A program made the position numbers and the translations under genes. A stretch of DNA of 64,000 nucleotides from Hygrocybe punicea (taxonomy: Eukaryota > Basidiomycota > Agaricomycetes > Agaricales > Hygrophoraceae): positions 5,022,001 through 5,086,000 of the forward strand of contig OY744470.1 of NCBI GenBank assembly GCA_963556145.1, given 5' to 3'. Numbering within the stretch: position 1 is the stretch's first letter; the number at the start of each line of letters is the position of its first letter. Below the pieces are notes generated by a model. The model was given only the letters and a program-made list of their open reading frames with translations. It was not told the DNA's origin and did no database searches. Positions 24,246 through 63,374 of the stretch are shown one piece after another.

Positions 24246-24414
24246 AAGGCAAGCTGCCCCATGATTAGATATATTTAATTTTCAATGATCCCAACTTTCT
24301 GCATTCTGAGAAACCAAACAGCAACACTATATTGATAACTACAAGTCTGTTGAAGACATTGTAGGACTATCTACACACATACTAGAAAGAAAATGTTTCA
24401 CTACTGCCCATTAT
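24246..24414. other. Short spacer
   Basis: AT-rich, no feature recognised. Confidence 0.3.
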
Positions 24415-25226
24415 TTCTTGTTGGCCCTCTCAGCCTTCTTGATATGATCCATGTCCTTCTGCACAAACTTGAGAATTCATTTCGCGATTCCAATTGGGAT
24501 ATTGCAAACGGTCGAGAAATGGGTGATAGTCTCATTAGCAAGGCCTTCACTGGCAAGCTCATGGATGCGCCTGAACCCATTCACCCGGATGGCATCAGTA
24601 TACTAGGAACATCGACACCCCGAGCACTGGAGTTGAGTGCAGCAAGCCAAGTGGGGATGGCTGGGAAGACATTGGAGATGTCATCAAAATCTACACTGTC
24701 TGAGCTGGGGATGTGCAGCCCATCATGTCGGACCAAGATGATTTTTTGGGTACGGCCGATGGAGGGGTGTACGGGGAATAGTGGTGCCTCAATCCACCAT
24801 ATGGAGGTGGCATCTGAATGATGATCGGTTGAGCCGCACCACTTGTAGCAGCAACTTGAGCAGGTTTTGCATTTACGTGCCGGCGAGAGGAAGCATCGCC
24901 AAGCTTCAACTGGACAGGTGGTGAGATGGTCGAATCATATGAGCCGTTTTCCTGACGTGGACTACAATGAGTCTCGTTAAGCAATAAATAAATGAGAGAC
25001 TCACGAGAAGCATGCCCCAGAGACTTAGATCAGTTATTTGTAAGGTGTAGTGATGGCCCTCTGGATATTTGACACAGGGTTTGCCATTGTGAAGAGGACA
25101 TTTGAGGTTCTCCGTAATCTTGGCAATGTAATTGGCAGATGTCTTCAACATTTTCTTCCCCGATTCGGTGTTGTTCCCACTCTCCTCATCTGTGTCCGCT
25201 CATTTCTTCCTCTTGGCCTTCACCTT
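24415..25226 (-). pseudogene. 3' half of a gene split by the KDZ transposon
   Basis: The minus strand reads KVKAKRKK, a TGA where CGA fits, ADTDEESGNNTESGKKMLKT and KITENLKCPLHNGKPCVKYP. The last piece begins a Cys/His motif. It is followed by EGHHYTLQITDLSLWGMLL, then after a short intron NGSYDSTISPPVQLKLGD, AAQPIIIQMPPPYGGLRHH, YTPPSAVPKKSSWSDMM, DDISNVFPAIPTWLAAL, RIHELASEGLANETITHF and ILKFVQKDMDHIKKAERANK. The C-H..C motif with the later Pro-rich and WAxx-type region matches large multi-copy, unnamed families associated with mobile DNA in Agaricomycetes. It continues in frame from the 5' half at 45,473-46,197 if the 20.2-kb insert and one copy of the 9-bp repeat are removed. Function unknown. 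Confidence 0.65.
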
Positions 25227-25235
25227 GTCCAAGCA
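25227..25235. other. Target site duplication (left), KDZ element
   Basis: GTCCAAGCA, repeated at 45,464-45,472. Nine bases is plausible for this transposon superclass. Joining the flanks across a single copy restores a continuous reading of the interrupted gene. Confidence 0.85.
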
Positions 25236-25385
25236 CACCTTACAGCATATCTTTTCCACAAGACATGGCTCAGCCGAGAGGGACAATTCCCACTCCGAGT
25301 GGGCCAGCCAATCTCGGCCGACCAATATCTTTCTCCAGGGGAGATGGCTTGGCCGAGGGGTCTATGTTCTGAGGGACATGAGTTG
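25236..25385 (+). repeat. Left terminal inverted repeat of KDZ element
   Basis: About 150 bases that match the reverse complement of 45,463-45,310 at roughly 80-85% by eye. The outermost 7-9 bases are not matched: CACCTTA on the left, GAGCCCTTT on the inverted right. Confidence 0.8.
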
Positions 25386-26440
25386 GCCGAAGCAGGGGGA
25401 TATATTGGCCAACGGGTCTGGATATTTTGGCTGGCCATGGGAGATGGATTGGCCCACCGGTCTGGGTATCTTGGCAGGCCATGGAACATGGATTGGCCGA
25501 CAGCCCAGGGTAATTTGGCTGGCCATGAAAGGTGGATTGGCCGACGTGTCTGGGTATTTCGGTTGGCCATGGAACATGGATTGGCCGATGGGTCTTGGTA
25601 TGTCGGCTGGCCATGGAACATGGATTGGCCGACGGGTCTCGGTATGTCGGCTGGCCATGAAAGGTGGATTGGCCAACAGGTCTGGGTATTTCAGCTGGCC
25701 ATGGAACGTGGGTTGGCCGACGGGTCTGGGTATGTCGGCTGGCCATGAAAGGTGGATTGGCCGACAGGTCTGGGTATTTCGGTTGGCCATGGAACATGGA
25801 TTGGCCGATGGGTCTGGGTATTTCAGCTGGCCATGGAACATGGATTGGCCGATGGGTCTGGGTATTTCAGCTGGCCATGGAACATGGATTGGCCGATGGG
25901 TCTGGGTATTTCAGCTGGCCATGGAACATGGATTGGCCGATGGGTCTGGGTATTTCAGCTGGCCATGGAACATGGATTGGCCGACGGGTCTCGGTATGTC
26001 GGCTGGCCATGAAAGGTGGATTGGCCGACCACACTGGGTATTTGGGTTGGCCATGGAACATGGATTGGCCGACGGGTCTGGGTATGTCGGCTGGCCATGA
26101 AAGGTGGATTGGCCAACAGGTCTGGGTATTTCAGCTGGCCATGGAACGTGGGTTGGCCGACGGGTCTGGGTATGTCGGCTGGCCATGAAAGGTGGATTGG
26201 CCGACAGGTCTGGGTATTTCAGCTGGCCATGGAACATGGATTGGCCGACGGGTCTCGGTATGTCGGCTGGCCATGAAAGGTGGATTGGCCAACAGGTCTG
26301 GGTATTTCAGCTGGCCATGGAACGTGGGTTGGCCGACGGGTCTGGGTATGTCGGCTGGCCATGGAACGTGGGTTGGCCGACCACACTGGGTATTTCGGTT
26401 GGCCATGGATTGGCCAATCCTGTTTAGTATACCGTCAGCC
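25386..26440 (+). repeat. 44-bp subterminal array, left, about 24 units
   Basis: The unit reads GGCCATGGAACATGGATTGG then CCGATGGGTCTGGGTATTTC then AGCT, 44 bases. Variants alternate GGAACATGG with GAAAGGTGG. Since 44 is not a multiple of three and the unit has no stop in several frames, open frames run through the array on both strands (for example 25,132-26,100). These are not taken as genes. Confidence 0.95.
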
Positions 26441-26566
26441 ATTGGACATGGGTTGGCAAATACCATATATTGGCTTGCTGGTCATTCTTGGCAGATGGTT
26501 ATGGTCCAGTTGGTTAAAAATATATTACTTTCTTCTGTTCAACTATATCTTCTCTAATAATATGTA

Positions 26567-29500
26567 TTACTCCATCTTGTTGGAAAAGGCAGTTTCTGCT
26601 TGTGCTATCATATTCCTCCACATTACCATTTGTTTTTCCGCATAACAGATGTGCCCCCTCAGTCCCAGACCAACTTTGTCACGACGTGCTTCCCATTGCA
26701 CCTTCTGGTGTTGCAGCCAACGAATCACGTTACCCATTTCTGACTTGACGCTTTGCAATTCTTCAGACCACCGATCATATCTGGCCTTGCCACGGAGCCA
26801 GTTTACACGATACACTGTATAGCAGTAAGATCTTCCATGAATTGCTGTAGCAGAACCATTCACCTTCTTGCATCCAATCGTTGTCACCAGTATTATTCCT
26901 TTCTTTCCTCCGCCAGATCCAGGGCAGCTTGTGACTCCTCTGGCCCACTCTATTCTCCTCAAGCATATCACCACTCATCTTGATATCCTTCTGCCTCAGC
27001 ACTTTGAAACGATCCAAAATGTCTGCATTCCCCCCTAGATTGACCAATGCTCGACGAGCCTGCCTGTAGCTGGTGGCATATTTACCAACTTTTTGCTGGA
27101 TGGCATGTATGTCGTCCCATGCTTGAGTCTTCTTCTTCTGGCTGTTTGCTCCATGAACAGAGGTTCGAAAGATTACCATTTTCTCACCCAGTGTCATCCT
27201 CAAGTTTTCCAAACAATCGTTTGCTTGGCCCACCCTGAGTTCCACCTCCTGAGCCACCAAATTTTCCAAACCCAGCCGAGCACATTCCTCCACTCCTAAG
27301 GTCGATGGCATTGTGAGTTGGCAATTTTCTGGCCATTCTGCAACATGGTCATCATCTTCTTCGTCTACCCCACCCTCCTCATCCACATCCACAATCCAGT
27401 CATCAGCAGTGGGATCATAATTGACCAGATTACACTCATCCACGTCTTCACCAAGTATTCCTTGTATTTTTCTGTGGAATGAGTCGATCCGAGACTGCAG
27501 TCTATTTCGCCAATCCTCCAGATTTGCCTTGTCTGTGAAACTGCCTGTTTTTTGAACAGCACGAGCTGTTGTTTTCAGAGTATTCCTGTAGGGTAAACAA
27601 ATGTCAAAGAGACGATCGATGAGAATGAGGATACATCCTACTGTGCTTGTTCTATGTTTATTCCTTCATTTAAGATGGTCACCCGACCAGCCATTACATC
27701 TTTGGGATTCCCTGTCATCAGTCTCAACCTGATCTCAGCCTGCGATGGTGCTGGTGAAACATCATTACCGTGTCCAAAACACCAACACTTTACAAGACAA
27801 ACCTTTCTCCATTCTGACGTCGAATACCCTCAAGTAGTCACCACAGAAATCCATTGCCCTTCTTTCTTCTTCCTTCCACTCCGCCAGCACTTGCTTATCC
27901 ACAGTTTCGGAAAGCTCCTCAAAGGCTGCCTTCATTTCCTGCATTCCATCTACTGCTTTATCATATCGTTTCAACAAAGACCGAACTGTGTGACAGCTAT
28001 GGTGATGATATGTATTGATGACATGCCTATGAATCACCTACCCATTCCTACCAACTTCTTCCAATTCGAATCCCTCATAAGGTCATCCAAGATCTCACGT
28101 CGTTGGGATTTTGACATGAAACGAATAAAACTGGAAATCTTGTTGATGATAGCCCACAGTGTCTCCAAAATTTCACCATCCTGCTGACCAGCACCACGAA
28201 CGAAGTTGAGACTGAATAGGGCAAAACACTTGGCAACATGTGCACCAAGATGAAACTTGCCCACAGCCCCAATGATCTCAAGCGCCTCAGGGAGAGTGAG
28301 GTGGTCGGAATCGGAAACCCTTTTAGCAAAATTGATCAGCCAACTGCAGGCAATATCATATTCCACCAGTGCTTGGGTGATACCACTGTGGCACAGCCTA
28401 TTGAGAGCGTTGCATATCGAATAATCAACGTTCATGTGTCTGGTGCAGACTCTTTAATAAATTTGTCACAATTCATAGCTCAAAATACATGACTAACCGT
28501 TCACCCTTCTGGAAGTCGACGACACTGTGGGGTACAAAGCAACCATGCTTGGCACATGCACATGCACCGATGCCAGTAGCGTATAAGTTATGACGATTGG
28601 CATTTGCTTGGTTGATGGCCTTGTGATTGGAGCACTGTGACCTCTGATACATGATCATTGATTTAGCATTCATGAAATTCACAATTCGATAAATACCTCT
28701 TTGGACTCCAGGGAAGCTGCCAGATGAGCACAATAAGGTGCATCCTCAACCATATAGCCTTGTCCATTGATAAGCCCAACGTCGTCATCAGGCTTCCGCA
28801 TGTTAATCTGCTCAGCTTTGAAATTGCCATCGACGACGATGCTGGGCCTGTAAAGCCACCTGTTTCCCTGTTTGGTGTGGAACTACATGAAAGCTGATCA
28901 GAATGACCCACTGATGCGGTCTATCCATCCAGTTCTGCGGAAGATTTATCCCTGGCTGGGGACATGCAGGGCAAAACAATGCCAGATCGCCATTACCAGG
29001 CTCCCTCTCAGTGTCATGCCCAAAGCCGAATCATTTCTTGAGGTGCAAGTATCGCCACTGTCTTGACACCCTCATTAGCTCACGATAACGATCCTGAACA
29101 CCATAACTCAGTACTCCGTTCTGTATGCACAATGTAACAAAACAACTAGTATATCACGAACCGGCAATGTATCTGGAAATGCATTGGAAGACAGTCTCCT
29201 TAACTTGTTATAAAAGTTGTTTGCAGACATTTTGCACTCCATCGAATCAATGTAGAAATGATCCAGGAGCTGGAAAGTGAATGCTGACGACGGCCGTTTT
29301 GCTGTTGCAGGATACAAATGCATTCGAAGTAGTTGAATATCTCGAGTGGGGGCATCTGGGCAGGAGCACCATCGGATTCGACGTCGGTAAATTCCATTCG
29401 TATGAGTGACAGTTATGATATCTTCCTCGGCGTGAACTGCCAAAGCCGGATCCAAATCGTCCTCCTCACCACCACCTGACATAAGAACATCATGCAGATA

Positions 29501-30130
29501 TGTATCTTCGACAGATGGCTGGGGGCCATCTTTTCTGTATGACGGACAATCGCCTCCACCATGGCCAAGACGCATGACCAGGCCAATCGTATTAAGGTCA
29601 TGTTTCAGGAAACATCTGCCGTTCCATATCTCAATTCTGTGGAATGGATTATGAATGTGTGTCTGCAAACAACAACGCTGGCAGAACGAAGGGCAACCAT
29701 AGCAATCAGGGCAACGAATGGTGATATCGGCCATCAGACATGACTGGCATGTAACATCGGAAGGGGGGGCCTCAGATGATAAGAGTTTGGAGAGGTATTG
29801 CTTGTGAATCGCTTTCCAGGCTTCCATTTCATCATTCTGTGTCTAATTGACATGCAATCAAAATCAAGTCGTACAGATAATAGTTGTGTCAACCTTTGCA
29901 CGCTTATTGCGATGTCTCCTTGTCTGAGGGTCCTCCTCTTCCACAAACGACGTTGAGGGCAAGGGAAGATCTTCACTCCTGTGTGATTGTTTTACAGGAC
30001 TTGGCGGACGAATAACTGGACGAGCCTTGACTGTCTTTCCACCTCGTTTCTTTTCCACCACCATAAATTCAACCTCTCTGGCAAATTCCTTTTTTTTTCC
30101 CGACCGGGAAGTGACTTTTGATTTCGGCAT
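26567..30130 (-). CDS. KDZ transposase with CxC2-type zinc cluster
   Basis: Catalyses transposition of the element. The start at 30,130 gives a basic N-terminus (MPKSKVTSRSGKKKEFA). An intron then leads to MEAWKAIHKQYLSKLL and a CxC2-like Cys cluster: TCQSCLMADITIRCPDCYGC, PSFCQRCCLQTHIHNPFHRI, later RIRWCSCPD. Next are GDLALFCPACPQPGINLP and the KDZ core: PSIVVDGNFKAEQINMRKP (first Asp), VEYDIACSWLINFAKRV (second Asp) and DGEILETLWAIINKI (Glu). Helical C-terminal exons include ADDWIVDVDEEGGVDEED, LVAQEVELRVGQANDCLENL and QWEARRDKVGLGLRGHI. The 3' end at 26,567 lies about 125 bases from the array. There are at least seven introns, and exon borders are approximate. All three catalytic acids are present and no internal stop was found in the exons. 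Confidence 0.85.
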
Positions 30131-30273
30131 GGATGAACAATAGTTAGATGAGTGTGGGAAAAGTGAGAAAATGACACGCCTTATAAAGACCAATACACGA
30201 GGCAAAACACATGGATAATAATAAAGATTATTACGTCGCTTGATATACAAATATATTTGAGGACAGGAAAATG
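30131..30273. other. Spacer between transposase start and protease end
   Basis: About 140 bases holding the transposase promoter. The protease gene ends upstream on the same strand, so the two may be read in tandem. No clear TATA element was assigned. Confidence 0.4.
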
Positions 30274-32097
30274 TTACAAATCCGATGAACTGTCAGAATC
30301 TGATACCATAGTTGGGGCCTCAAACCAACCGGGGACCAATTTAACATCACCGGATGAACCCTCCTTTCCTTCCAATACAACCCTTTCCAGCGCATCACCC
30401 TGAATGCAATTACGAACAGCTTGCCTGCGCAACGCCCCCTGGAGTTCCTGACGGAGCGTGGGTATCCGCCAGTCTTGCCATGGATCTTTGGCAGCTCTGA
30501 TAGCAATCTCGTCACCCAGCATGATGTTCATCATTTCTATTGGGTTTTCTAAGAAGATTCGGAGGAAGTGCAGCATGTAGATGCCGCAATCATCAAAATT
30601 CGGCTGGACAGGTACCTGAAAACAAACATTCAATTCATTCGCAACACGGAGGTTAGACGTGGTTCACCTTGGGGGTGATTCTCTTGATAGGTGCCAGCTT
30701 TTTCACCTGTCTGGTGTTCTTCGCAATGCAGGCTAGCCACGCATGAACCAGGGATATATCTTTTTGATGGTGTGCTGGGGGCAGTGAATCGAGAACAAAT
30801 GTTACGCTAACCGACGATGAGTAAGTTCAATGCAAAGCTGAAATGGATAACTACGTGTGTAGTCCATCAGGAGGATTTTCTAACAAACATGCAGCAGGAT
30901 TTGCCACGATAATCAAATACCAGTGGTCACTGATGGTGAAGTGAGATGTTGCCTTCACAAAAACTGACTACACTCACCCAGTGGGCACAGGAAAGACCAA
31001 GTATGGGAGCGAAAATATGTCGATTGCCTTCGTCCACCTCTTCAAACTCTTCACCCCGTTCTTCCTATGACCAGATTTAGAGGAAATGAAGTTATATGAA
31101 CAACCAAGCAACGTGCACCTCAGTTTCTCCATGAAAAAAGTAATGAATATGTGTATGTTTGCCGGCAACTCCGGCTGATGGATTGCTGCTTGCTGCAGAG
31201 CGTAACTGAAACGGGGAATAAGCTACTGCACTGGAGGGTTGAAATGTACCTACTGGGTACCGAAATTAATCAGTTCGTCATCTAGCCAATCCTTTTCCAA
31301 ACGTTGATATGACATCCACGGAACAGCACCCCGCTCTGAGTATTTTGCAACAGTACACGTGTTTTCAAACCTAGAACACCTGAGGTGAGTGACGGGCCTG
31401 GCCATGGCAATGTGATGTACATGACCGCATCTGGCCTTTCATTCAACTGCAAAAATCGGCCATTGGTTTCGATGTCATTTCTGTTGAAGTAGAGATTAGT
31501 TGTGGTATGATGAATGTGTGATACTCACTGTAGATACTTGATGCTACTTTCGCCCAGTGTACTGGTGAGCAAACTGAGCAAATCCGCATACATATCTGAT
31601 GTCCAGGATGCATGCTCATTGTCGAAATAAATGCCAATTTGATGTTTTGAAACAATCTCTGAGTATCAATTGCAGTCACATGTAAGCTTATTGAAATGGT
31701 GGCGTACCATTGTTCTCTCTGCCTAAAAACACACATGTGGCTTTATCCACATGCCGAGAAATAAGCACATACAATACCAAGCCGCGTATCTGCTCTTCAT
31801 TTGGTTTGGTGGCCTACAAAATTACTTGAATATCAAGGGTGGGCTGTTGAAGACTGACAATCACCTGGCAACTGACAACATCGCGTTCCACCAATAGTTG
31901 CATGGTCACAGAGCTGTCCTCTGTCAAAATACAACAAACACTTGTATACGACAGTGAGTGATGATTAGGATGCTGAACATGATGATGTACCATGATCCTT
32001 TGCATTCAAACTCGACAGATGTGGTCCCTTCCGGAGATTTGTGGTAGGTGTTTCCACCAGAGACGGTGAAAAGGACGGGGAGTAGGAGAGATGGCAT
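30274..32097 (-). CDS. Ulp1/SENP-type cysteine protease (C48)
   Basis: Probable SUMO-processing protease. Exons on the minus strand: start MPSLLLPVLFTVSGGNTYHK; VTMQLLVERDVVSCQ; QIRGLVLYVLISRHVDKATC; EIVSKHQIGIYFDNEHASW; NGRFLQLNERPDAVMYITLP; then CTVAKYSERGAVPWMSYQRL and EKDWLDDELINFG, the substrate-entry motif of Ulp1 enzymes. The core follows as WTKAIDIFSLPYLVFPVPTG, DHWYLIIVANPAACLLENPP (catalytic His near 30,930), VLDSLPPAHHQKDISLVHAW (Asp) and VPVQPNFDDCGIYMLHF (oxyanion Gln and catalytic Cys near 30,590). The tail ends at 30,274 with an acidic SDSDSSSDL. His, Asp, Gln and Cys are all present. Exon borders are estimates. Such proteases accompany some eukaryotic transposons, perhaps acting on SUMO-dependent silencing. 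Confidence 0.78.
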
Positions 32098-32187
32098 ATT
32101 CGATTGATGTGAGGTTATGCACGTGATGGTTGAGAACAAAGAGAGCTGTTCAATCATGTGATGCCGGGTCACATGTAATGTGGTCCC

Positions 32188-32211
32188 GTGACATCACATG
32201 TGTGATGTCAC
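32188..32211. repeat. 10-bp stem inverted repeat
   Basis: GTGACATCAC, four bases ATGT, GTGATGTCAC: perfect arms. It lies about 90 bases upstream of the protease start and shares the TGATGTCAC word with the longer palindrome at 33,177. Confidence 0.8.
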
Positions 32212-32429
32212 GCCGCTGTTGGACACATTTAACGCAGTAGGGAAATTGGATAGCAAAGAATAGGTCATAGCAGCGCTGCAGAAATTGCACATCCTCTATG
32301 AGATTGTCCATTCCCCACGTAGCCATTATTCTATGTTTTCTAGTAGATATGATACCCTAAAATGGGCATTTGTTTTTATTTGGTCAGAAATCACCTTATT
32401 CCATCACATCCTGAGTCGCACCATCAACG

Positions 32430-32935
32430 TTGGCCAAGGTAATTTCTCTTGATTCCAACACACTACCATCTTGCTGCATGGCAATAATCACTAGTACGGC
32501 AGCAAATGACAGCGCCGTTGTTTCCTTGGTAGGGTGCTGTACCAGGGAAATGTGGAACGCCGCATTTACGGCGGTTCTTGTTGACGTGCGGCCTGGTAAA
32601 GCTGCTGCTTTTCACGACATTGAATGCCTCCCCCAGTGTGTTTACAACATTACACTGACCCCACTTTTGATTGTTTAGGATGTGCCTGAAATCTATTCGT
32701 GTCTTTTCATGCGGCCGTCACCGAACAAGAACAATATTCTGTCCGATGGCTCGGCATGATGCGATCGGAAGACGCAGGCCATGCACGAACGCCGTTCCTG
32801 AAAGGAGGCTGGCCACACATGTTTGGTGTGGACGAAAATGTTCGTATGCGTATGGGATATTTCGTTCACCTAGCCACTAGGTTTGTTGCAGGTGTGCTAC
32901 ATCCCTTGATGGTCGGTGAAACCTGTGAACATTAA
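32430..32935 (+). CDS. Unrecognised coding-like region
   Basis: Two adjacent open stretches, 32,430-32,678 and 32,699-32,935, have protein-like composition: SLVGCCTREMWNAAFTAVLV, DVRPGKAAAFHDIE, then EQEQYSVRWLGMMRSEDAGH and FLKGGWPHMFGVDENVRMRM. They could be exons of one small gene or the remains of a gene between the protease and dioxygenase. No family was recognised and no intron model was confirmed. Confidence 0.3.
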
Positions 32936-33176
32936 TTTTCACCAACTGCCCACATATACAGTTGAAATCAAGGCAAAGGTGTTCATTATTCGGCAGCGAC
33001 ACTGTAATTAAATGTCTGTGCAACAAAGTGCCATTCACAAGCTTCCTGCCCAGAGCATGAATTTCAAATGTAACAATATACAGTACTGACGTTTCCGTAA
33101 CTACGGGCCTTTGCAACACTGCCATTTACGACTTTCCTAGCCAGTATATGAATGCACACAACAACGAGTCACGCCT

Positions 33177-33212
33177 GTGATGTCACGTTTGGACGTCCAA
33201 ACGTGACATCAC
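33177..33212. repeat. 36-bp perfect palindrome
   Basis: The left half GTGATGTCACGTTTGGAC is exactly complemented by the right half; the centre is GACGTC. An imperfect 40-bp relative sits at 42,015-42,054. The two bracket the dioxygenase and JmjC genes. Confidence 0.95.
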
Positions 33213-33375
33213 GGACGTGACTTGTCACCATCCAAACTTGGCCACATCATGTGAGTCAAGTCATTTCACGTGATGAAAACCAACCACGTTTGTCACGTGA
33301 ACAAATACAACCAATCACAAGCGCTGATTGAATTCATTTTCCCATCCTTCGTTGTTTTCCCCCTCATCATTGTAC

Positions 33376-33426
33376 ATCCCACACTGCGAGATTGTTGTAC
33401 CGGGCAACAATCTCGCATTATGGGAT
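33376..33426. repeat. Stem-loop with 12-bp perfect stem
   Basis: GCGAGATTGTTG (33,386-33,397), loop TACCGGG, CAACAATCTCGC (33,405-33,416). ATCCCA and TGGGAT (33,376-33,381, 33,421-33,426) add an outer 6-bp stem. An ATG at 33,425 opens a short exon-like stretch with a GTGAGT donor, so this may lie at the 5' end of a transcript. Confidence 0.8.
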
Positions 33427-33589
33427 GCCACGCACTTTAGGTTACATATCATTCTTCTACCCGAATGGTGAGTGGTTTGTTATGTCTCCGCTGAATGCCA
33501 TTCACTTAGAATATTCATAAGTGACTGATTGTTTGTCACTGCGATTGATCTTCTACAGCTTCCTGCCAAGGTTTCCACATGCATTAATT

Positions 33590-34395
33590 GTGGAATCAGT
33601 ACATGCCAAACCGATGGTGGCCGGTCCTCGGACATGGGTGCTTGCTGCTGCCAGTCAACCTGGAATGAAAAGGTGGGTGAATCTCACTGATTTGCTTGCC
33701 AGGCAACCTCCTTGCAACAGGCCTGGCGGTATACCTGTTTGCATCCAAGGTGTGTGTCTTCTCATTTTAATATTGCGCTTTTAGTAGTGATTCACTTTCA
33801 TTACAGCTGCTCTTTCCATCATGTTTTGTGGCGGTGAATAGGCTTACTGACAATTTTACTGCTTTCAGATAAGTTATCCATGAGCACGAGTTGTGGCATC
33901 AGTGCGTGCCAAACCGGTGGTGGCAGGTCCTCAGACATGGGCGCTTGCTGCTGCCGGTCAACCTGGAATGAAAGGGCGGGTGAATCCCCCTGATTTCCTT
34001 GCCGGGCAACCTCCATGCAGCGGGCCTGGCGGTATTCCTGGCTACAACCGAGGTGTGTGTCTGCTCATTTTAATATTACCCATGTTGACAGGTTGACTCA
34101 CAGGTGATATACGTCGTCTTATAGTAGTGATTCCCTTTCATTACAGCTGCTCTGTCCATCATGTTTTGTCGCGGCGAATAGGCTTGCTGACAATTTTACT
34201 TATTTCAGACCACTCCTTCATAGCGCAAGTTGTGGCATCAGTGCGTGCCAAACCGGTGGTGGCCCGTCCTCAGAAATGGGCGCTTGCCGCTGCCGGTCAA
34301 CCTGGAATGAAAGGGCGGGTGAATCCCCCTGATTTCCTTGCCAGGCAACCTCCCTGTAGTGGGCCTGGTGGCCTTGTTGACGTCAAGAAAAGTAA
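33590..34395 (+). repeat. Triplicated exon-like unit upstream of TET/JBP gene
   Basis: Three copies, starting near 33,595, 33,897 and 34,236, each encode about 50 similar residues: SVRAKPVVAGPQTWALAAAG, QPGMKGRVNPPDFLAGQPPC and SGPGGIPG, with small changes. Each copy is preceded by a TTTCAG- or CAG-like acceptor and the first two are followed by GTGTGT. The non-coding DNA between them (TGCTCATTTTAATATT, GATTCCCTTTCATTACAGCT) is repeated too. The unit therefore appears to be an exon plus its intron, duplicated twice (spacing about 303 and 339 bases). The peptide is unrecognised. It may be the N-terminal region of the dioxygenase gene or a separate transcript. Confidence 0.75.
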
Positions 34396-35135
34396 GTCTT
34401 GCTGTACTTTTGACTATTCTATCATTCACCAAACGGCACAGGTATCAATCAGCTTATAAATGTGCATGGTCTGTATATGTATATACACTGAATCTGCTCG
34501 GCATTGCCATTTTTTGTGCTATATTGTGTGTTATATCATAGTTGGTCATTCTTGTGACATGGCGAAATTGCTGTATGCAGCAAATTATTAAATGCTAAAA
34601 GTTCTAACCATAATAACACCTTATTAAATTATACCGCCTCGAGGCCACCATGTGTACTAAAACTGACCTAACCAATTCTCAACCAATCTCACTTCTCAAC
34701 CATTATGTACGCCGACAGAATCCCCTCAAAGAATGCACAATCCAAGGCAATGGAAGCCTCGCTTTCCGTCAACATGAAAACAAAGGATTGTGGTCTCGCT
34801 CCAAATCTAAAGAAACATATGTGGACGAGGCTGAGAAGAATCCTCTCAAACACTACATCGTATTATAGGAAGTCGGGCATGCGCCCTCCGAAGTCTCCTG
34901 TAGAGGAATGCAAACGGCTGAGGTCAGATCCATGCTGCTTCAATGTCATATCTTACATGTTTTGTAGATCACGTTTGATGATGCTGAGGGATCAGCTTCC
35001 AGTTAGCAAGGTCTTGGGAGATTCGGCCCCAGATTGCGAAACATTCTCCAAGTCGGACATGGTCTCAGAATCCGAACTGGAGAGGGTTCTCCTCACTGTG
35101 GCAGCCGCGATTTTGAACCCTAGTACGTTGCTGCC
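34396..35135. other. Region upstream of TET/JBP core, possible N-terminal exons
   Basis: Contains plausible exon pieces on the plus strand, such as LLNHYVRRQNPLKECTIQGN and GHAPSEVSCRGMQTAEVRSM, in changing frames with intron-like breaks. They may form the N-terminal part of the dioxygenase protein. A definite model could not be made. Confidence 0.35.
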
Positions 35136-36265
35136 ATGAAAGTCGGCATATTTAGACTGACATCTTGCCTCAAAGTAATTGTGCCCTTGGATGCGAATAG
35201 ACTGGCAAATCGAGTGAAGAATATCAAGGACACTTCGGATGCTGACAATGAAAACCTACTCAGGTTTTTTCAGGAGATTCACATCAGACATGTGAATGAA
35301 CCAGCTACAGTAATCGACACGTGTGGTTCAATTTTGGTCTGGTATCTACCTGATGTTGTAACTCCAAGACGTATTGTGAGTCACTTGCCCCCCGGAAATG
35401 TGGTTTTTGACAGTACCCACTGCGACACAGGAGGAATTGAATGTCAGTGCTGAAATAATAACCGAAATTCTGGAAGAATCCTATTCGGAGTCCCTCAAAA
35501 AACTTGAGAAAGGGAAAGATCCGCAATGGAGGAAAGATCCAAACATTTTCTTTCCACCTCCAAACCCACGATTTCACCCAGGATCAGTGGATTTCGCCGC
35601 AGCATGGTTTTCTCAGGGTAGAGAGGTAACACCTTTAGTTAGTCGTCTGTTTTACATGAGCTGACCGCCTGTTTTTTCAGCGACTTACCGATAGGTTGAT
35701 CACGTCGACAACTCTTCGAACAACTGAAGCCACCATGTGGATGGCTGCAATCGAACCCAGCGAGCTGATCTTCAACGCAATTACTGCGTTAACCCATCAG
35801 TCATTGTACACAGCTGGCCTTCTGGCTGTGACGAAAATCTGGGACGGCGAAACGATCAAGAACGTGGAAACACATGAAAATGCTAAGGAGTGGACATCTG
35901 TTTACACTGGAATCGCCGTTATCGTTAACAGGATTACAACTCGACACAGAGATGCTGGAGGGTGTCCAGAATGGTATGATTTGCTGGCGAGTTGTGGGAC
36001 ACATACGAATGTGGAACTAGCCATCCCTGAGTTGGATGCTACGTTCTCTTATTCGCCAGGAACTATCATCGAAATTTGTGGCAAGGTTCTCAGTCACAGT
36101 GTAGGCAGATGGGAGGGCGGTGAAAGAATATGCATGGTGCATTATATGCGAAACATGGTACATGACCATCTCAAGATTGACAAGCCCACCTGGAGCCGAC
36201 ACAATGTGTTTGCAAGGGAGATGAATGCAGAGTTTTTGGCATCACAGGAATGGAGATGGAATTAG
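35136..36265 (+). CDS. TET/JBP-type 2-oxoglutarate/Fe(II) dioxygenase
   Basis: Predicted to oxidise 5-methylcytosine (or thymine) in DNA, in the nucleus. Three exons (35,136-35,375, 35,431-35,625, 35,681-36,265) joined by two 55-base introns give 339 residues; more N-terminal exons are possible. The order follows fungal TET/JBP proteins: ATVIDTCGSILVWYLPDVV, DPQWRKDPNIFFPPPNPRFH, AVIVNRITTRHRDAGGCPEW with the iron ligands H and D (codons 35,945-35,947 and 35,951-35,953), YDLLASCGTHTNVELAIPEL, FSYSPGTIIEICGKVLSHSV with the distal iron His (36,095-36,097), and GGERICMVHYMRNMVHDHLK with the 2-oxoglutarate-binding Arg. All ligands are present, and no stop or shift was seen. It lies inside the KDZ element and is followed on the same strand by a JmjC-type gene. 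Confidence 0.85.
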
Positions 36266-36658
36266 CTATTGTGCCAAGGGAGATATCATCCTAACGTAAA
36301 AGTATGACGGCTACCGTTGCATGCTTTGTACGACTGTAGTCAGAAACCTCTGTGGAACTAAATCTTGTTATCCTCATTCACGGATGACGAAGGCCTATGA
36401 GTTTTAACTAACAGATAGCTAGACAGTGTTAGACAGTGTTCGGAGAATTTCCATGGCTTTACATTGATAACTCTGTCACATTGACAACTCAGTCAATTCG
36501 AAATGTGTACTTAAATGTGGCAATTCACGTGATGTGGTCACACGTGATCACAGTAAACCGTGACGCGTCATTTTTTTTTTTACCTTCTGCACCCTTATCA
36601 TCTAGCCTCAGCCTCTCTTGAATTGCTCTCAGATACACTCGAATTGAACATTTTGGCA
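36266..36658 (+). promoter_or_regulatory. Intergenic region with CACGTG elements
   Basis: About 390 bases between the two plus-strand genes. TTCACGTGATG and CACACGTGATC lie at about 36,524-36,550, roughly 110-135 bases before the next start codon. CACGTG-type boxes also occur near 33,270, 33,294 and 44,535 at other gene edges of the element. Function inferred only. Confidence 0.4.
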
Positions 36659-39600
36659 ATGTCGTCATCAGCAAGCACCTCGGCGCCGTCAATCGCTTCT
36701 CTACATGCGTCTGTAATGTCTGGCAGTAATTTCCGAAGCATGAATGTGTTCCAGGACTTCCCGTGGGTCAATGGCACGCCTCTTGCTGAAGATTCACTTG
36801 AGAAGGCTATCGTAACCTTAATTGGCAATCAGTCTGCTCTAGGAAACACACCGTCCACCTTGGCTGTGATGGTGCGTCAAATCTCCCACCTTGTAACATT
36901 GACGGTCAACTTGTCTGCTAGGCCCTGGCAAAGCAATTGGATTATGTGAATCCCACAGGTGAAATCTCACGTAAAGCCCAAACCATCCAAGAATACCTCT
37001 CTGCTGATGGCTCTGCTATGCGTGATGTGGCAAGGTGGACTACTGTGTACCGGAATGACCTCCTGGTAGCGGCTCACTCAATCCTTCGCTATACCCTGCT
37101 CGATAAGCTCATGGACGCTGTTGGGTTGCCTCGTCATCCAAGTTTCAAAGTAATTCGGAGATCAGCGAAACCAGAGATGAGCGAGAAGTTGACCAAGGTG
37201 AGTTCACCATTTACATTTGGGCAGACGTTTTAAGTTGACGTTTGCACACCGTCTTGAAGCTCTACAAATTTCTGAGAGACTGGAGTAAGCTGATCACGAA
37301 GCTTCGTATGACATGCAAAAGTCTATTAATCACACAACAAGATCAAGAAGTGGTGGGTGTTTCAGCCGTGGCAGTGCCGCAGAAAGTGGTGTCCAGTGTG
37401 GACACCATCCCTATCTTTGCAGTCGCTCTCCCAGCACACTTGACACCAGCCCAAAAAGAAGTAGAAATGAACATCCGGATCCTTTACTGTGCATCTGTCA
37501 ACCTCGAATCCTCCGACGTCAACCAGATCCTCCTCAATCTAGAGCTTCTTGCATTCTCATTCACGTGGTTTGGCCAGGTATGTGACGTATGTCCTATATG
37601 AAACGTGTGTCAGATTTTGTACAAAAACAAGGCAACTCATATGTAGACTGCGACTTCACAACATGGGTGGAGAAGCTACAGAGGTTGGGATTGCGTTACA
37701 ATCACATTACGCCTGCCGCAAATAAATAATTCACATGGTTTCAGGATGGCCAAGAGTGTTGATCTACCGTTGCAAGACTCATTTGTCAATGCCCTCACCA
37801 CCAAGTCTTTCGGAGGTTTAATGTATGATCGGATGAGAAATCTATTCCACCTAAGCCTCACACTGTCACCCATAATTACTCTTCTCCCACGACGTTTCAA
37901 TCATGAATCTCATGCACGGCCATCTCTCATGGCAGTGAGTCCATTATTTGTGCCAACTTGGACGTAGTTGACATAAGGAAAAGATCACGTTTGCCTTGGG
38001 CAATGAAAGGCCTCCATTCCTTGCCAAAACGGAGAGGGCGCTTTGGAGGGCCATTACAAGAATATGTTTAGGATCTTCGGCAATGCAGGAGCTGAATGTA
38101 TTCCTCCAAGAATATGATTTGTTGGAGGACAGCGTCCAGGGAACGGAACAGGACTTCAGTTGGTTTTGTTTTGACAGTACGCCGCCTGTCTCTACATTTA
38201 TCGCTGGGACTGACAACAGATGTTGCAAGATAAGGAAGTGGATGACCTGACCAACTCTGCTAGTCAGCTTACGGTGGCAACGAAACAAAAGGTTCCAACA
38301 GACCCCAAGGCAAAGAATGACAAGCCTGCGTCAGGCAACCCTCTGTCCAGCGATGATGAACCGCTTCAATTGAAATTAACAAGGAAGAAGAGGGGTGGAC
38401 CATCGAAGGAGCTTGCTTCAGGTGGACAGAGCTCCATGTTGACCCGAAGCCAGGCCAAAATGTTGGACAAGGTTGGGGACTCTTCGAAAGGCAAGGAGAA
38501 GCAGAAGGCAGAGAAAGTCCAGAAGGAAGAGAAAGTCGTGGTTGCGCCGGGGAGGTCCTATCGGAGGAAGAAAAGATCCACTCGCTCGTTGACAAGAAGT
38601 TATCCCAAGTCCAAGAAACGTGATGATCTTGAGGATGAAGATGACGATGATGACGAGGATGACTATAAGAAAGCGCCAGAGAAAGTGAACGTGATCATCG
38701 ACCTTACCGGAGATGTAAGTGATTCAAGAACGTGTCATTTGTCATGAATGAATATTTTGATAGGATTATGGGGAACCTGATTTGCTCAGCCGTCCAGCAC
38801 CCATTGTGTGTCTTTTGTTGTTCGATAATGTGCCACCCCACTGATGATTCATAAAGCGAGCATCAGAGGGTGTTCATCTCACGATGTATGATGGTGACGC
38901 TGTACACAAACCTGTTGAACATGTGCACTATTCACCATCCGTCGTTGTACGTTGATGTCTGATTTTTGTACCGTTTGATTGTTAACTGGTAAGCACGATA
39001 CAGGCAAAAGTGGAACATGCATTGTTGTGGGAAACATATGAAATGATCCGATCCAGTTACATTGATGGGGTTCCTCCACATCGGCTGCCCAGTGCAAGAG
39101 AACAAATGTATGATCCTCATGCATCATGTGTGTTCGTGGTGGAATGGAACATCTTCAAGTCGATGGATGCTGCAACAATTCAAGGAATCTTTCGTCATCG
39201 TCACATCCTCGTGCTCAATGCCCCTGTAGAAACAGTGGAGTTTGATAGGGAAGGTTTGGAGACATTGGGGTCTTTGTCATCCATTCGTTCAGTGCAAGGT
39301 CCGTTTCCGGAGCGATGTCTGGGCATAGTGACTAAAGTGCCTTTGTTAGTTGCTGAATTGCGATTGGTGCCTAATATCGAGAATATGAACAAACCTGGCA
39401 CATTGGAGACATTATATCAGCTTGCGCTTGACCCTGACAACGAAAGGGTTTTCAATTTCCTTGACCTTCCCATGGGTCATATGACGTTGGACCCACCTCC
39501 AAAATTTCGGTGAGCAACCTTGTTTCGAAGATCGAACACGAGATTTACCTGTCTATTCGTGAAAAGGTCCTTTTCATCATCTGAGGTTGCTTGGCACGAA

Positions 39601-41792
39601 ACCTGCGGCCGACCGGGGTTTGTCTGCGAGCAGCCTTTAAACGACGATTTGGCTTGGGGAACGGCAGCGACAGCTCGAGCCATTTCTTGGACACACGTAG
39701 ATGATGATGGCTTTGGCATGGTGGTTATTGTCAGGACTGGCGCAAAGTACTGGGTCCTCATGAGGCCTCGAAGGGATGCCGAATGGGATCGCAAGGCGGG
39801 CAATCTTGCGACTAACAAGGCCTATCCTCAGGAGTGGGAGCCGAGAAAACATGGTGGGAAAGGCTTGTGGGAAGCAGAAGGATTGCTGCTCACAAAGGGT
39901 TCAGTGCTGTAAGTGGGAATATATTTCGTGACAACTTGGATGTGTGCTGAAACACACAGTTACATGAGGCCGTGCACCCCACATTATGTCCTCGGTGTGG
40001 AGCACTCCATTGTGAACGGGCGTCATCTCTATGCGACGTCAACTATACGGGATACCTGTTATGGGATTATCCATACTTTCGTGATGAGTCATACCATCAC
40101 AAACGCGGAGCATAATGTGACACGTACATTTCTGCGCCGACTTCTCACCATGTGGATGGAGTACTTCACGGGGAACCACGAATCATCATGTGAGCTACTT
40201 TGGGCGAGGTTTACAAATTCCTGAAGATTAAAATGCTCACTGCACAGCTACTGTCTTCACCAAGTCTCATATGCCCAAGATCGAAACCGAAGATGGCTTC
40301 CTCGACCTTGTGATTGTGGGAAACCTGATCGAGCTTGCGGATATCATCAACAGGAAGTTCTACACCCATACCATATCGGCTGACATTCATGAGGAACAGA
40401 ATATTGCACGATGCAGATATAGACGTTTCCAAATCTGGTTTGCGGAACATTTTGTTGTCTTCATGGAAGACCACTGGATCAGCCCCTCTTACATTTTCCA
40501 ACAAAGTCTTTTGGAACTATCTGCTGCAATTGTTGGGTATAAATGGGACAAGGATGGGGTTGTGAAGGCACCAGCACATTGCACAGCCAAAGCTGTTGAG
40601 TCAGCGGTCCACCGACATTTTCAAAACGATTGGCCAGATTTGGTGCCAAAGCTGAATGAGCTGCTTCAGATCCCACCATTGGAATTCTTCTGGACCGGCC
40701 CCAAAATACACATTCAGACCCGTCCAGTGGAACCCATCAGTCCCATTCTTGTTGAATGCTTAGATTTTCCACCTCATCCAATTCTGCTCATCAACACAAC
40801 TACCGGTGAAGGCGAGGTACAGGATGACACAGATACACAGGAAAAGGCGAAAGACAATGAGCGCGACAAAGGGGAGGGCACCGATGGTGAGGAAGAGGCG
40901 GATGATCCATCTAGGAAGGTGGGAGATTTAGTGGATGCAGCTGGCGAAGAGGTAGCCACAGAGGAAAACCAGGATCCACCTGCAATGGTTGGATGTGCAA
41001 ACGACATGGCTGTGGACACTGAGAGGGAAGAGGATCCACCTGTAACGGTGGGAAATTCAGCCGATGTGGCTGGGGAAGATGCGGGAGAAGAAATGAACGT
41101 CGCTGGCCCGAATGAGGAGGATCCACCTGAGCAGGTGGGAAATTCAAATGACGCAGCTTCGTGGAATGAGGACGGTCTAATCATGCCCCTGGGTATGTCA
41201 AATGAGGAAGATGTAGACCGTGATGAGGGGAAGCAGCAGGAAAAGAAGGGGGGGGAGGAGGGCGCGGTGCAGGGCAAGGGGGTGCAGGCGGGGGAGGTGC
41301 AGGAGGAGGGGGAGGAGGACGAGGAGGGGGAGGAGGAGGAGGAGGGGGAGGAGGAGGAGGAGGGGGAGGAGGAGGAGGACAGGGAGCTGCAGGACGAGGA
41401 GGGGGAGCTGCAGGAGGAGGGGGAGGAGGAGGAGGAGGAGGAGGAGGAGGAGGGGGAGCTGCAGGAAGAGGAGGAGGAGACGGATGGGGATGGGGCAGAG
41501 GAGGAGGACGAAGAGGAGGAGGATCGAAATGAGATGGTGGGGAAGTTAAATGCCCAGAGTGTGGACAGTGACGAGGGAGAGGATGACGATCAAATGGACA
41601 TCTCATCTGGCAGTGATGCAGTGTATAATGATTTCGATGGATCACCCCAACCCCCGACACCCCCTGTGAAACGTCCTCGGAGGGAAGACTCGGGTACGAT
41701 AAATTGCCTCAACAGCTTGTATATACACTGATATGATCATTCACACAGATTCACCAATACGTTCCACAGACCTGAAACGCCGTCGTAAGTAG
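36659..41792 (+). CDS. JmjC-type protein with long acidic tail
   Basis: A large multi-exon gene. The N-terminal exons (MSSSASTSAPSIASLHASVM; FQDFPWVNGTPLAEDSLEKA; ARWTTVYRNDLLVAAHSILR; YDRMRNLFHLSLTLSPIITL) are of unknown fold. A basic, disordered stretch follows (SSDDEPLQLKLTRKKRGGPS, DDLEDEDDDDDEDDYKK). Next comes a JmjC-like cupin: AWHETCGRPGFVC, AISWTHVDDDGFGMVVIVRT with an H-x-D metal pair (about 39,694-39,702), YWVLMRPRRD, then MRPCTPHYVLGVEHSIVNGR with the third metal His (39,981-39,983), and HLYATSTIRDTCYGIIHTFV. After a helical region ending near 40,700 an acidic tail runs to about 41,600 and includes a long Glu-rich run. The last intron (41,694-41,748) joins to DSPIRSTDLKRRRK and the stop at 41,792. 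JmjC proteins demethylate histones or hydroxylate proteins; the substrate is unknown here. Exon borders are approximate. Confidence 0.72.
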
Positions 41793-41930
41793 CCGGGAGG
41801 ATCATATCATTCATACTGCTTCCTACTCATGTATATTCCTGACATCGCAATGCATCATCTGCCTCCTCTGCTGTTAAATGTATTCCTTGTAATAAACACC
41901 GAACCATTGAGAGGCATGGGTAGAGGAAAA

Positions 41931-42054
41931 TGTTATGTCACGTTGGGCCTTGCACAAGTGACATGTCACAAGTGTTATGTCACGTTGGGCCTTGCACAAA
42001 TGACATGTCACAAGTGTTATGTCACGTTGGGTCGTCCAAACGTGACATAACACT
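41931..42054. repeat. Three 42-bp repeats ending in a 40-bp near-palindrome
   Basis: GTTATGTCACGTTGGGCCTT followed by GCACAAGTGACATGTCACAA recurs at 41,931, 41,973 and 42,015. The third copy turns into an inverted repeat (GTGTTATGTCACGTT ... AACGTGACATAACAC, 42,013-42,052) that shares its core with the 36-bp palindrome at 33,177. It lies between the 3' ends of two convergent genes. Confidence 0.85.
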
Positions 42055-42230
42055 GGTGACATGTGACGTTGGACTGTCTTGACACAAGTATTATATATTT
42101 ATGATTTATTCCACATATCACCTTTTTAGGCACATTCAACAAAGCCTATTTCCGCCGTGTAGAACGTCGCAAGGGTTGACTGCTTGTGGTAATGCAAATT
42201 GTGAGCTGCATCCCCACAAACGGGATAGCT

Positions 42231-44417
42231 TTACCTCACATTTTTACCAGCATTTCTTGAGCTGTCCAACTTCCCTGGGCGTCTTTGTTGTGCAACATCA
42301 CTCTCCCATGCCTTGTTTGTCTCCCTCTCCCACGCCTCTTGTGCCACCCTCTCCTGGGCGTCTCGTGCCTCTTTCTTCCTGGCCTCCTCCCGGCCCTTTC
42401 GTGCGTCCCTCTCCTGTGCCTCTCGTGCCTCCCGTTCCGCCCTCTCCCACGCCTCTCGTGCCTCCCTGTCCTGTGCATCTCGTGCCTCGCGTGCCTCCCC
42501 TTCAGCCCTCTCCCACGCCTCTCCTGCCTCCCTCTCCTGGGCCTCTCGCGTCTCCCGCTCCTGTACTTCTTGTAACTGTCTTGCCATCTCTCGGTTCTGT
42601 GCTGCTACCCGTTCTGCTTGCTCCTTTTGCTTTGCTTGTCTCTCCGTCTTCTTTTTCGTCCACAGAAGCTTCAACGTCGATGTATCGTCATCCATCTCGC
42701 TGTCGCCACCACGTCCATCAAAGCTACCACTACTTGCACTCTCGTCACTCCAACTATCGTCGCCCTCTTCGCTACTGACTGCTTTCTGTTTTCCCTTGCT
42801 GTACTTGGCGGCATTTTCTGTTTTCTTCTTGGGGTGGACTGTCTTTAATGCTGGAACATTCGATTTGGATCTGCGAGGTCCGATAGCATTCGATTGTGCA
42901 GCTCCCATAGCACTCGATTGTGCAGCTCCGGCAGGAATAGATGTCGTTTCCCTACTGGAGTTTGATGGCGCCGAACGATCGGTCCTGGCCAAAGCAGCAG
43001 CAGCATGGAACTTCTTCTTTTTTTGCACGAATGCATTTGGTGCTCGCTCGTCGGTCTTCAGGACGGTTTTAAATCGGAATGGTTTTTCACCGAGTTTCTG
43101 CCGTTGCAACCAAAATTGGTGGACGGTCCGAAGTTCATCGAGTTTCATTTTCCACGGTTCCCGTAGTTCTACGTGAGAGGGAAAGTAGATGTCCTCGATG
43201 TATTGGTTTCGATTTTGTCCAATTTTTCCCCATGGAACAGCGACGACGCTGTTGTTGCACATCTGACCTTCAAATGAATATGAGTACAGTAAGCTTGGCC
43301 AACGTCGAGGTACGTACGATATGACATGGTCATCAGTGATCTAAACATGTTTCTTACATCGACCAATGACATAGTTGACACATTCGGTACCATAGGAAAA
43401 CCGTCCTCATCGATCTCAAGCTTGAACGGCAGGCTTTTGTCATATCTGGTAGTTGGACCACCATCATCGTCTTCACTGTCGGTCTTCGCTCCATCGGATT
43501 CATCTGGAACACATTACATGGGAAAGATGGAACAATGGCTAATCGTACCGTCATGATTAAAAAGGGACCCCAAATGTTCATCCCATTTGGTCCAAATGTC
43601 ATCCCCGTTATTTTTGAAGACGCCGATGAACTTCTTGTGTACCGGGGCCGGTGTCTTGAACCTCACAGGAAGGGAAGATAAGTACATGATTGACACAAAG
43701 CAGGAATCGACCCACTTTCCTTTGGTTACAGTCCCATCTTCATCTTCATATCCCACCAACATGAATATTTTTACTCCCATCTGCTCATCTATGTCCTTCA
43801 TAAACTTCATCGCCGTCTTACCGAAATCTTTTGCTGCTCGGCTGGATAAGGTAGAAGATTAGCATCATGCAGACGAAAGAAGATTATTAGTACCGTCGTT
43901 TGACTTCCAAGGGTGGACCTTGCTGGTTCCAGGCGTCGGCAAGAGCTTCAAATTCTTGTTTTTTCTCTTCGGTCAAGGAACCGTACATATCACTCCACGC
44001 TTTGCCATAGTGCTTGATGTAGCCGGGCTTTCCTCCGGTTTCTCCAGACAGCTCTACCGTCCTAGCGTCGATTTCCTTGGTCATCTTTTCTCTTGTAACC
44101 AACCTTGCATTCCACTTCTTTGTATATTTCGGAGCATCCTCAGTGTCGCTCTCCAATTTTGACCGATGATTGTGGTACCAAGTTTGAATTTTCTGTATTC
44201 ATGGTATAATGCTGTTAGGCTTATCTGAAGGGTAGTATTAGAATATACAGACCTGTTGCATATTTGGGGGCCATTGTGTGTTGGTTTGTTGTGCCGATTT
44301 TTTTAAAAGTTTCCTGATCCCTTTCAGGACACGAATACGATCTTCACCAGTGGATCTCCTAAAATCAGGATAACCGTCCTCGAGGATCTTAGTAAATTCT
44401 GGGGTGATCCACTTCAT
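42231..44417 (-). CDS. Unknown nuclear-type protein with coiled coil
   Basis: Start at 44,417: MKWITPEFTKILEDGYPDFR. An intron then leads (exon from 44,192) to KIQTWYHNHRSKLESDTEDA, a short helix pattern like a DNA-binding W-x-x-HR helix. Further: EIDARTVELSGETGGKPGYI, KAWSDMYGSLTEEKKQEFEA and DAWNQQGPPLEVKRR, spliced to RAAKDFGKTAMKFMKDI; QMGVKIFMLVGYEDEDGTV; FGEVR-like linkers; SVVAVPWGKIGQNRNQYIED; LRTVHQFWLQRQKLGEKPF; a Ser/Lys-rich region; and a long charged coiled coil (EREAGEAWERAEGEAREARD type, about 120 residues). The layout matches large multi-copy, unnamed Agaricomycete families linked to transposons. The role is unknown; chromatin or DNA binding is only a guess. At least four introns. 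Confidence 0.6.
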
Positions 44418-44790
44418 TTAGGCAAAAACTGAGGAGAATGAAGGCAAATGTCATTGTCTGGAACAAAGGCAGAACGTCGTTGTCTGGAACAATGGAAGAA
44501 TGCCTCGTGGTGAACATGAGGTGATGACAAATCACGTGATTGATGGCAACAAATAGCAATGTGGATTACAAGTAGATGACTCAGGGGATTGCAAGTCGGT
44601 GCAGGACGTGATTAGGAGAATATGATGAATTGTGAATATTGATAAATTCCAGAACACAAGGATAGAGGAGCAAGTACCAAATCTGTGGCACATGGCAAGG
44701 GGTGGGTAAGAGTCCAAAGATGTAAGGTGGGTATGTTCAGAGCAGGCTGAATGAACAGATACAACCCACCTGTTGCATTTGTGGCAACAC
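44418..44790. other. Spacer between cargo and right array
   Basis: About 370 bases. GAAGGCAAATGTCATTGTCTGGAACAA-type words are repeated twice near 44,440-44,500 (GTCTGGAACAA). ATCACGTGATT lies at about 44,533. No gene was recognised. Confidence 0.4.
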
Positions 44791-45330
44791 TGTTCCATGG
44801 CCAGCCAAAATACCCAGACCCGTCGGCCAATCCACGTTCCATGGCCAGCCGAAATACCCAGACCTCTCGGCCAATCCATGTTCCATGGCCAGCCGAAATA
44901 CCCAGACCTGTCGGCCAATCCACGTTCCATGGCCAGCCAAAATACCCAGACCCGTCAGCCAATCCACCTTTCATGGCCAGCCAAGATACGTAGTCCGGTC
45001 GGCCAATCCATGTTCCATGGCCAGCCGAAATACCCAGCCAGGTCGGCCAATCCATGTTCCATGGCCAGCCAAAATACCCAGACCCATCGGCCAATCCACG
45101 TTCCATGGCCAGCCAAAATACCCAGACCCGTCGGCCAATCCACGTTCCATGGCCAGCCGAAATACCCAGCCAGGTCGGCCAATCCACGTTCCATGGCCAG
45201 CCGATATACCCAGCCAGGTCGGCCAATCCATGTTCCATGGCCAGCCACAATACCCAGCCAGGTCGGCCAATCCACGTTCCATGGCCAGCCGATATATCCC
45301 TCTGCTTCGGCCAACCCATGCTTCTCCGAA
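44791..45330 (-). repeat. 44-bp subterminal array, right, about 12 units
   Basis: Same 44-bp unit as the left array, in inverted orientation (plus strand reads GGCCAGCCGAAATACCCAGA then CCTGTCGGCCAATCCATGTT then CCAT). It has half the copy number of the left array and adds GCCAGGTCGG variants. Confidence 0.95.
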
Positions 45331-45463
45331 CATGGAACCCTCAGCCAAGCCATCTGCCCTGGAGAAAGATATTGGTCGGCCGAGATAAGCCAGCCCACTT
45401 GGAGTGGGAATTGTCCATCTCGGCTGACCCATGTATCATGGAAAAGATATGCTGAAAGGGCTC
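45310..45463 (-). repeat. Right terminal inverted repeat of KDZ element
   Basis: Inverted counterpart of 25,236-25,385. The element ends where GTCCAAGCA begins at 45,464. Confidence 0.8.
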
Positions 45464-45472
45464 GTCCAAGCA
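45464..45472. other. Target site duplication (right), KDZ element
   Basis: GTCCAAGCA, identical to 25,227-25,235. Confidence 0.85.
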
Positions 45473-46197: not shown

Positions 46198-46289
46198 GCA
46201 AGTCGCGATGAAGGATGATCAATGATCTTTGGCCGTTTCCGTGGTAACACACGATTTAATTTGACTCTCAAGCAACAAATGGATTTATG

Positions 46290-63201: not shown

Positions 63202-63374
63202 ATAGCTGTCGTTCTTATTCTTCCAGTAGCTCTGTTCTTGCTACTCTCTGTGTCCTCAAAGTTAGTTGAAAGTGGAATTATAATGGGTTTTAGGCCTGAA
63301 GCCGTCTGAGACGAGACTCTTAATTTTGGGGTCCCAGCTGGGGTGCCACCACGTATAAGGTCAAGATACGTTCC

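Follow-up and report, generated by a model that had tools for sequence, protein, structure and literature searches.

In fungi, some KDZ transposons carry a gene of the TET/JBP dioxygenase family (TET+ elements), and the features of their ends differ among the described groups. Two TET+ families of the Kyakuja lineage from Laccaria have 7-bp target-site duplications, CA..TG termini and no terminal inverted repeats (TIRs) (Kojima, 2025, PMC12730594). TET+ Kyakuja elements are found in five orders of Agaricomycotina and are the TET+ KDZ lineage found in all five; for Zisupton and for a TET+ Dileera of Puccinia graminis, 8-bp duplications are reported (PMC12730594). In Cryptococcus neoformans, KDZ1-3 (about 9-11 kb, TIRs of 139-241 bp) were caught inserting into a reporter gene, with duplications of 8 bp for KDZ1 and of 4-8 bp for KDZ2 and KDZ3 (PMC12810828). 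In Marasmius oreades, TIR motifs have been characterised for both KDZ and Plavaka elements (PMC8290104). Here we describe a TET-carrying KDZ element of the basidiomycete Hygrocybe punicea. It lies in a stretch of 64,000 nucleotides, hereafter the window, that corresponds to positions 5,022,001-5,086,000 of contig OY744470.1 (here C36) in the 92.2-Mb assembly GCA_963556145.1 of 42 contigs.

We are highly confident that this element is a complete, recently mobile, cut-and-paste KDZ transposon with a TET cargo, Kyakuja being its most likely lineage, and that it is nested in an older copy of a repeat bearing a Plavaka transposase. This reading is favored because the ends are precise, a 7-bp duplication flanks them, a paralogous copy of the target is uninterrupted, and many full-size copies have duplications of their own. 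A complete KDZ transposon with readable ends had already been proposed in a model's reading of the letters of the window (the sequence-only reading), and it stands with a corrected span, 25,234-45,463 (20,230 bp), the ends being fixed by comparison with other copies in the genome. The sequence GTCCAAGCA is present twice, at 25,227-25,235 and 45,464-45,472, and had been taken for a 9-bp target duplication. That length is rejected, since independent copies begin with CACACC and have 7 bp in common. The duplication is GTCCAAG (25,227-25,233 and 45,464-45,470); the CA that follows it is flanking sequence on the right side and the first bases of the element on the left side.

The left TIR (25,234-25,403, plus strand) starts with CACACCTTACAGCATATC and the right one (45,294-45,463, minus strand) finishes with GATATGCTGAAAGGGCTC. 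As predicted from the letters, the two are inverted copies of each other, with 146 of 170 positions identical in an ungapped alignment; their outermost 9 bases match only in part (CACACCTTA vs. GAGCCCTTT). The predicted inverted arrays of 44-bp units are also present beside the ends, with about 23 units at 25,404-26,409 (plus strand) and about 11 units at 44,792-45,290 (minus strand). To the left, a 120-base query beginning with CAGCATATC gave 314 first-look candidates, of which 40 were scored matches. In 30 fetched loci set in one orientation, the common sequence begins with CACACCTTA (CACACC) in 29 and with CACAGCTTA (CACAGC) in one, and diverges upstream. This boundary is independent of the query, because the query started 9 bases further inside. 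To the right, 30 fetched loci are alike up to GGGCTC, where the search pattern itself ended, so that only the sequence beyond is independent. There the flanks are divergent, except that L051, L055, and L056 have one common flank and L033 continues into array-like sequence. Genome-wide, 24-base end patterns with at most two mismatches were found 107 times for the left end and 154 times for the right end, and a reversed control pattern gave no match in either search.

The state of the site without the element can be read from a paralogue in the same genome. When the flanks were joined via a single GTCCAAG into an 802-base query, 42 genome matches were obtained; two of these come from the window itself, one per half, and a further 30 cross the junction by their coordinates, three of which were read directly. 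The closest match, L083 (C2:1,201,849), is 97% identical and is an empty site with a single GTCCAAG (the sequence-only reading had named such a site, in other strains, as support), and the 91 bases spanning the junction are identical to those of the joined flanks. Chance end repeats are rejected on the basis of this empty site. In L086, the 10-kb stretch around C2:1,201,849, the window segments 20,904-25,235 and 45,461-50,616 are contiguous. The left part of the target (20,904-25,226) is thus continuous with its right part (45,471-50,616), and the latter carries a Plavaka transposase (49,089-50,523, minus strand; Pfam E 1.4e-56 and 2.4e-27 in two frames). Because the flanks are contiguous in L086 and the window copy carries this transposase, the KDZ element is placed, by alignment, within an older copy of a multicopy Plavaka-bearing repeat. 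The flanks had been read as two halves of one minus-strand gene. This holds insofar as the reading '...DDKKDK...CLDKVKAKRKK' is a single open frame of 218 amino acids in L086, but the frame belongs to the Plavaka-bearing repeat, and a unique host gene as target is rejected by the 42 matches, 30 of which cross the junction.

Two further features of the target repeat were observed. A fragment of the RNA polymerase II largest subunit (24,009-24,281, minus strand; Pfam RNA_pol_Rpb1_6, E 1.3e-6), the frame of which is also found in L086, reads as a captured piece of a host gene. A tandem array of 8.7 copies of a 137-bp unit (22,078-23,264) matches L086 too.

Other copies of the element are numerous. 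Pairing the first 100 of the left ends with the first 100 of the right ends, in consistent orientation and within 60 kb, yielded 46 pairs, and both flanks were read for 26 of them. An exact 7-bp duplication is seen in 19/26, one with a single mismatch in 4/26, a 6-bp duplication in 1/26, and none in 2/26; the two last pairs may be recombinants or mispaired ends. No exact 8-bp duplication occurs among the 26 pairs, the best case having two mismatches, and no common target motif was seen in 23 compared duplications. By size, 18 of the pairs measure 18.5-23.5 kb (13 with an exact duplication, three with one mismatch, two with none), four measure 6.3-8.2 kb, and four measure 27.6-47.9 kb, all with an exact duplication; these long pairs may contain nested insertions. 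The search for copies with the same ends that the sequence-only reading had suggested was therefore successful as to the copies, with 7-bp instead of 9-bp duplications. Its view that the full extent of giant KDZ elements can seldom be defined does not hold in this genome, where 16 of the 18 pairs of 18.5-23.5 kb have a 7-bp duplication with at most one mismatch. The copy at C39:981,625-1,001,398, also complete and with its own duplication, TGTAAAT, matches the window copy over its whole length. Leaving out the arrays and two low-complexity stretches, the two copies differ at 210 of 17,570 sites; the arrays of the C39 copy are shorter by 748 and 219 bp, or about 17 and 5 units.

Between its ends, the element harbors several genes. 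The transposase gene, with several exons, extends over 26,775-30,130 (minus strand) from the ATG of MPKSKV, an extent estimated from open frames. One exon (29,108-29,842, minus strand) encodes a CxC2 cysteine cluster (PF18803, E 8.4e-28) and another (28,034-28,453, minus strand) the KDZ catalytic domain (PF18758, E 4.5e-27, profile positions 98-217); for the N-terminal part of the KDZ domain, the upstream exon matches only at E 0.047. The cysteine cluster sits N-terminal to the KDZ domain, and PF18803 and PF18758 occur together in 118 of the 120 transposase homologues listed out of 417 found. Among these 120, the five best relatives are from Leucogyrophana, Plicaturopsis, Suillus (two), and Pisolithus, with 40-41% identity over about 90% of the length. 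Next to the transposase, at 30,274-30,663 (minus strand), lies the C-terminal piece of a Ulp1-like (C48) cysteine protease (Pfam E 1.3e-6); a Pfam scan of three frames upstream of this piece matched no protease family. On the plus strand, the catalytic region of a TET/JBP dioxygenase is encoded by a last exon at 35,660-36,265 (Pfam Tet_JBP, E 6.2e-13), preceded by probable upstream exons at 35,124-35,664 that are open frames with no Pfam family above the cut-off. The last exon matches the solved structure of CcTet from Coprinopsis (7vpn, E 7.8e-19). Its HRD motif and second histidine align with their CcTet counterparts, and it has G and D at the positions numbered Gly331 and Asp337 in PMC12730594. 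In the remaining open frames scanned, at 36,557-41,731 (plus strand; the last of them ends in an acidic stretch of low complexity) and 42,231-44,417 (minus strand, a charged protein), no Pfam family scored above the cut-off.

The TET gene is present in many copies. A search with its last exon found 122 matches, the majority of which are more distant; 36 copies, including that of the window, are near full length with at least 89% identity, four partial matches of at least 93% identity being excluded from this count. In 23 of the 36 the exon is free of stops. All stops in the 13 others are TGA, the codon expected when CGA loses its CpG. Selection was estimated on 22 exons, namely 20 fetched ones, all from stop-free rows, a choice that favors low values, together with the window and C39 copies. 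For the ratio of nonsynonymous to synonymous substitution rates (dN/dS), comparisons among members of the recent group gave 0.56 (78 pairs) and those of this group with a near one 0.43 (39 pairs); the value was 0.27 inside a second subfamily (10 pairs) and 0.11 from one subfamily to the other (65 pairs), where dS, at 1.28, is near saturation. For the most distant copy, dS was not computable. The H, D, and second H that bind iron are conserved in 22/22 exons, the Gly331 position in 22/22, and the Asp337 position in 21/22. We read this pattern as long-term purifying selection, with a constraint that appears relaxed in recent copies. Separately, four TET copies that are 61% identical to that of the window have a longer open frame of 306 amino acids (C20:54,086; C39:5,904,267; C36:791,584; C8:6,297,861); by their coordinates, three of them are no more than 90 kb from the end of a contig, C20 being an 82-kb contig.

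It may be asked whether the TET/JBP gene has a role in the life cycle of the element or is a mere passenger. The record of CpG decay bears on this question. Between the window and C39 copies, 130 of the 210 differences are CpG transitions, with only 1,440 of the 17,570 sites in CpG context; per site, CpG transitions exceed other changes 18.6-fold over 26.5-41.2 kb. For a TET-less Plavaka pair of similar age, the ratio is 22.7 and 23.5 in two stretches; it is 11.7 and 10.3 for older Plavaka pairs and 8.7 for the pooled TET exons. Hence, KDZ and Plavaka elements alike were probably methylated in the past. Protection of the element from CpG decay by its own TET was tested and is unsupported, since the ratios resemble those of the TET-less Plavaka; brief, local demethylation may nevertheless be compatible with such decay. 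A passenger gene would agree with this near-equal decay and with the dN/dS of 0.56 among recent copies. It accords poorly with the ratio of about 0.11 between the subfamilies and the conserved metal-binding residues, and with the 23 of 36 near-complete copies that are still open in the last exon, and we regard it as unlikely. In the 44-bp array units, the three consensus CpGs vary by 23% vs. 7% at other positions (34 units), and part of this CpG variation is other than C-to-T or G-to-A.

As to classification, the KDZ domain and the N-terminal CxC cluster together assign the element to the KDZ superfamily. The order of domains is as in Pleurotus ostreatus, where CxC2 stands ahead of intact KDZ transposases (PMC7641404). 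Like Kyakuja-1_LB and -2_LB of Laccaria bicolor (PMC12730594), the element combines a KDZ transposase, a TET/JBP gene related to CcTET and a 7-bp duplication; both this duplication and a TET/JBP gene between the ends are features of TET+ Kyakuja. Filing it as Kyakuja, although the most likely choice, is tentative because the CA..TG ends without TIRs of the two Laccaria families are not found here. Long subterminal arrays of 44-bp units are present here, and the main text of PMC12730594 does not contain the words subterminal, Ulp1 or SUMO. Like Cryptococcus KDZ1-3, the element is a complete KDZ with TIRs and target duplications, but those elements have CxC1 and a smaller size, as against CxC2 and 20 kb here, and no TET gene is mentioned in the passages on them (PMC12810828). 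An assignment to Zisupton or Dileera would fit the presence of TIRs, a feature absent from both Kyakuja families of Laccaria, and the Pfam KDZ model cannot separate the three lineages. Yet it has little probability, in view of the 8-bp duplications reported for Zisupton and a TET+ Dileera, as against 19/26 exact duplications at 7 bp and 0/26 at 8 bp here, and of the position of Kyakuja as the TET+ KDZ lineage found in every one of the five Agaricomycotina orders with TET+ elements (PMC12730594). In the literature on Kyakuja, Dileera, Zisupton, KDZ, and TET/JBP, no title naming this element was found among titles and abstracts; it could stand in the tables or supplements of PMC12730594. The TET+ KDZ class has been published before, as have its 7-bp duplication and TET cargo, and what is described here is a well-bounded family of a known kind.

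That the two ends stem from two insertions joined by recombination, with end repeats due to chance or microhomology, is scarcely credible: the two pairs without duplication indicate that such recombinants may exist in the genome, but the window's 7-bp duplication is exact, its paralogue runs through the junction at 97% identity with a single GTCCAAG, and the C39 copy agrees in order and almost in length. Several observations do weigh against a complete, recently mobile, TET-carrying Kyakuja. Two of the 26 end pairs are devoid of duplication. The ends are CA..TC with 170-bp imperfect TIRs, unlike those of the Laccaria Kyakuja (PMC12730594). The window and C39 copies are set apart by insertions (338 and 183 bp) and by gaps, one of 54 bp within a low-complexity frame and a few small ones, and the C39 TET exon holds one TGA stop. 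The exon structure is estimated from open frames, so the window copy is not claimed to be autonomous. The near-saturated dS and the stop-free choice of exons limit the dN/dS values as stated above, and the TET cargo did not visibly spare the element from CpG decay over evolutionary time.

The window contains two other mobile elements. A Gypsy long terminal repeat (LTR) retrotransposon (14,032-20,395) has a long open pol frame (16,778-19,144) and two LTRs with 99.5% identity; the stretch into which it inserted repeats part of 46.3-46.9 kb in inverted orientation. Toward the right edge (55,421-64,000), a non-LTR retrotransposon with a reverse transcriptase at 58,127-59,695 (minus strand) is flanked by inverted 102-bp arrays (55.4-57.0 and 63.4-64.0 kb), the arms of which are 96.8% identical over 628 bp; it is perhaps nested in another DNA element extending past the window.

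Relatives of the KDZ element having its ends and parts of its 44-bp arrays are L087 (6.3 kb), L109 (7.5 kb), and L108 (8.2 kb). They contain large internal palindromes and low-complexity interiors and align with one another over long stretches. Compared by blastn with the interior of the 20-kb element, they show short patches near 33.6-34.4 and 42.0 kb and none in the transposase and TET regions. Their duplications are exact at 7 bp (L087), with one mismatch (L109), and of 6 bp (L108). An element of only 124 bp (L048, C7:3,419,101-3,419,224) consists of a left end plus a right end with the 7-bp duplication GTCTGCA; that it represents an amplified miniature family is unsupported, with one full-length copy among 40 scored of 311 candidates. 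All four are best explained as non-autonomous elements that would have been moved in trans.

A possible life cycle can be outlined as follows. The CxC2-KDZ transposase would bind the TIRs, and probably the 44-bp arrays too, excise the element, cut the target with a 7-bp stagger and join the element there. The TET/JBP enzyme would oxidize 5-methylcytosine, thereby making the genes of the element expressible, and a role for the Ulp1-like protease may be the removal of SUMO where the complex for insertion or transcription forms. The non-coding 6-8-kb relatives, having the same ends and arrays, were probably moved by this same transposase. In a more speculative extension, to which we give rather low credence, the element would represent a branch of TET+ Kyakuja that bears TIRs and has the 44-bp arrays as joint docking sites for transposase and demethylase, and the 6-8-kb non-coding palindromic family, having kept only ends and arrays, would parasitize both activities.

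One genome thus offers many fully bounded, near-identical copies, together with empty sites, non-coding relatives, and TET genes both open and decayed. This family makes the gain that a transposon draws from a TET demethylase measurable, by comparing methylation between copies with open and broken TET genes and selection on TET with that on the transposase.

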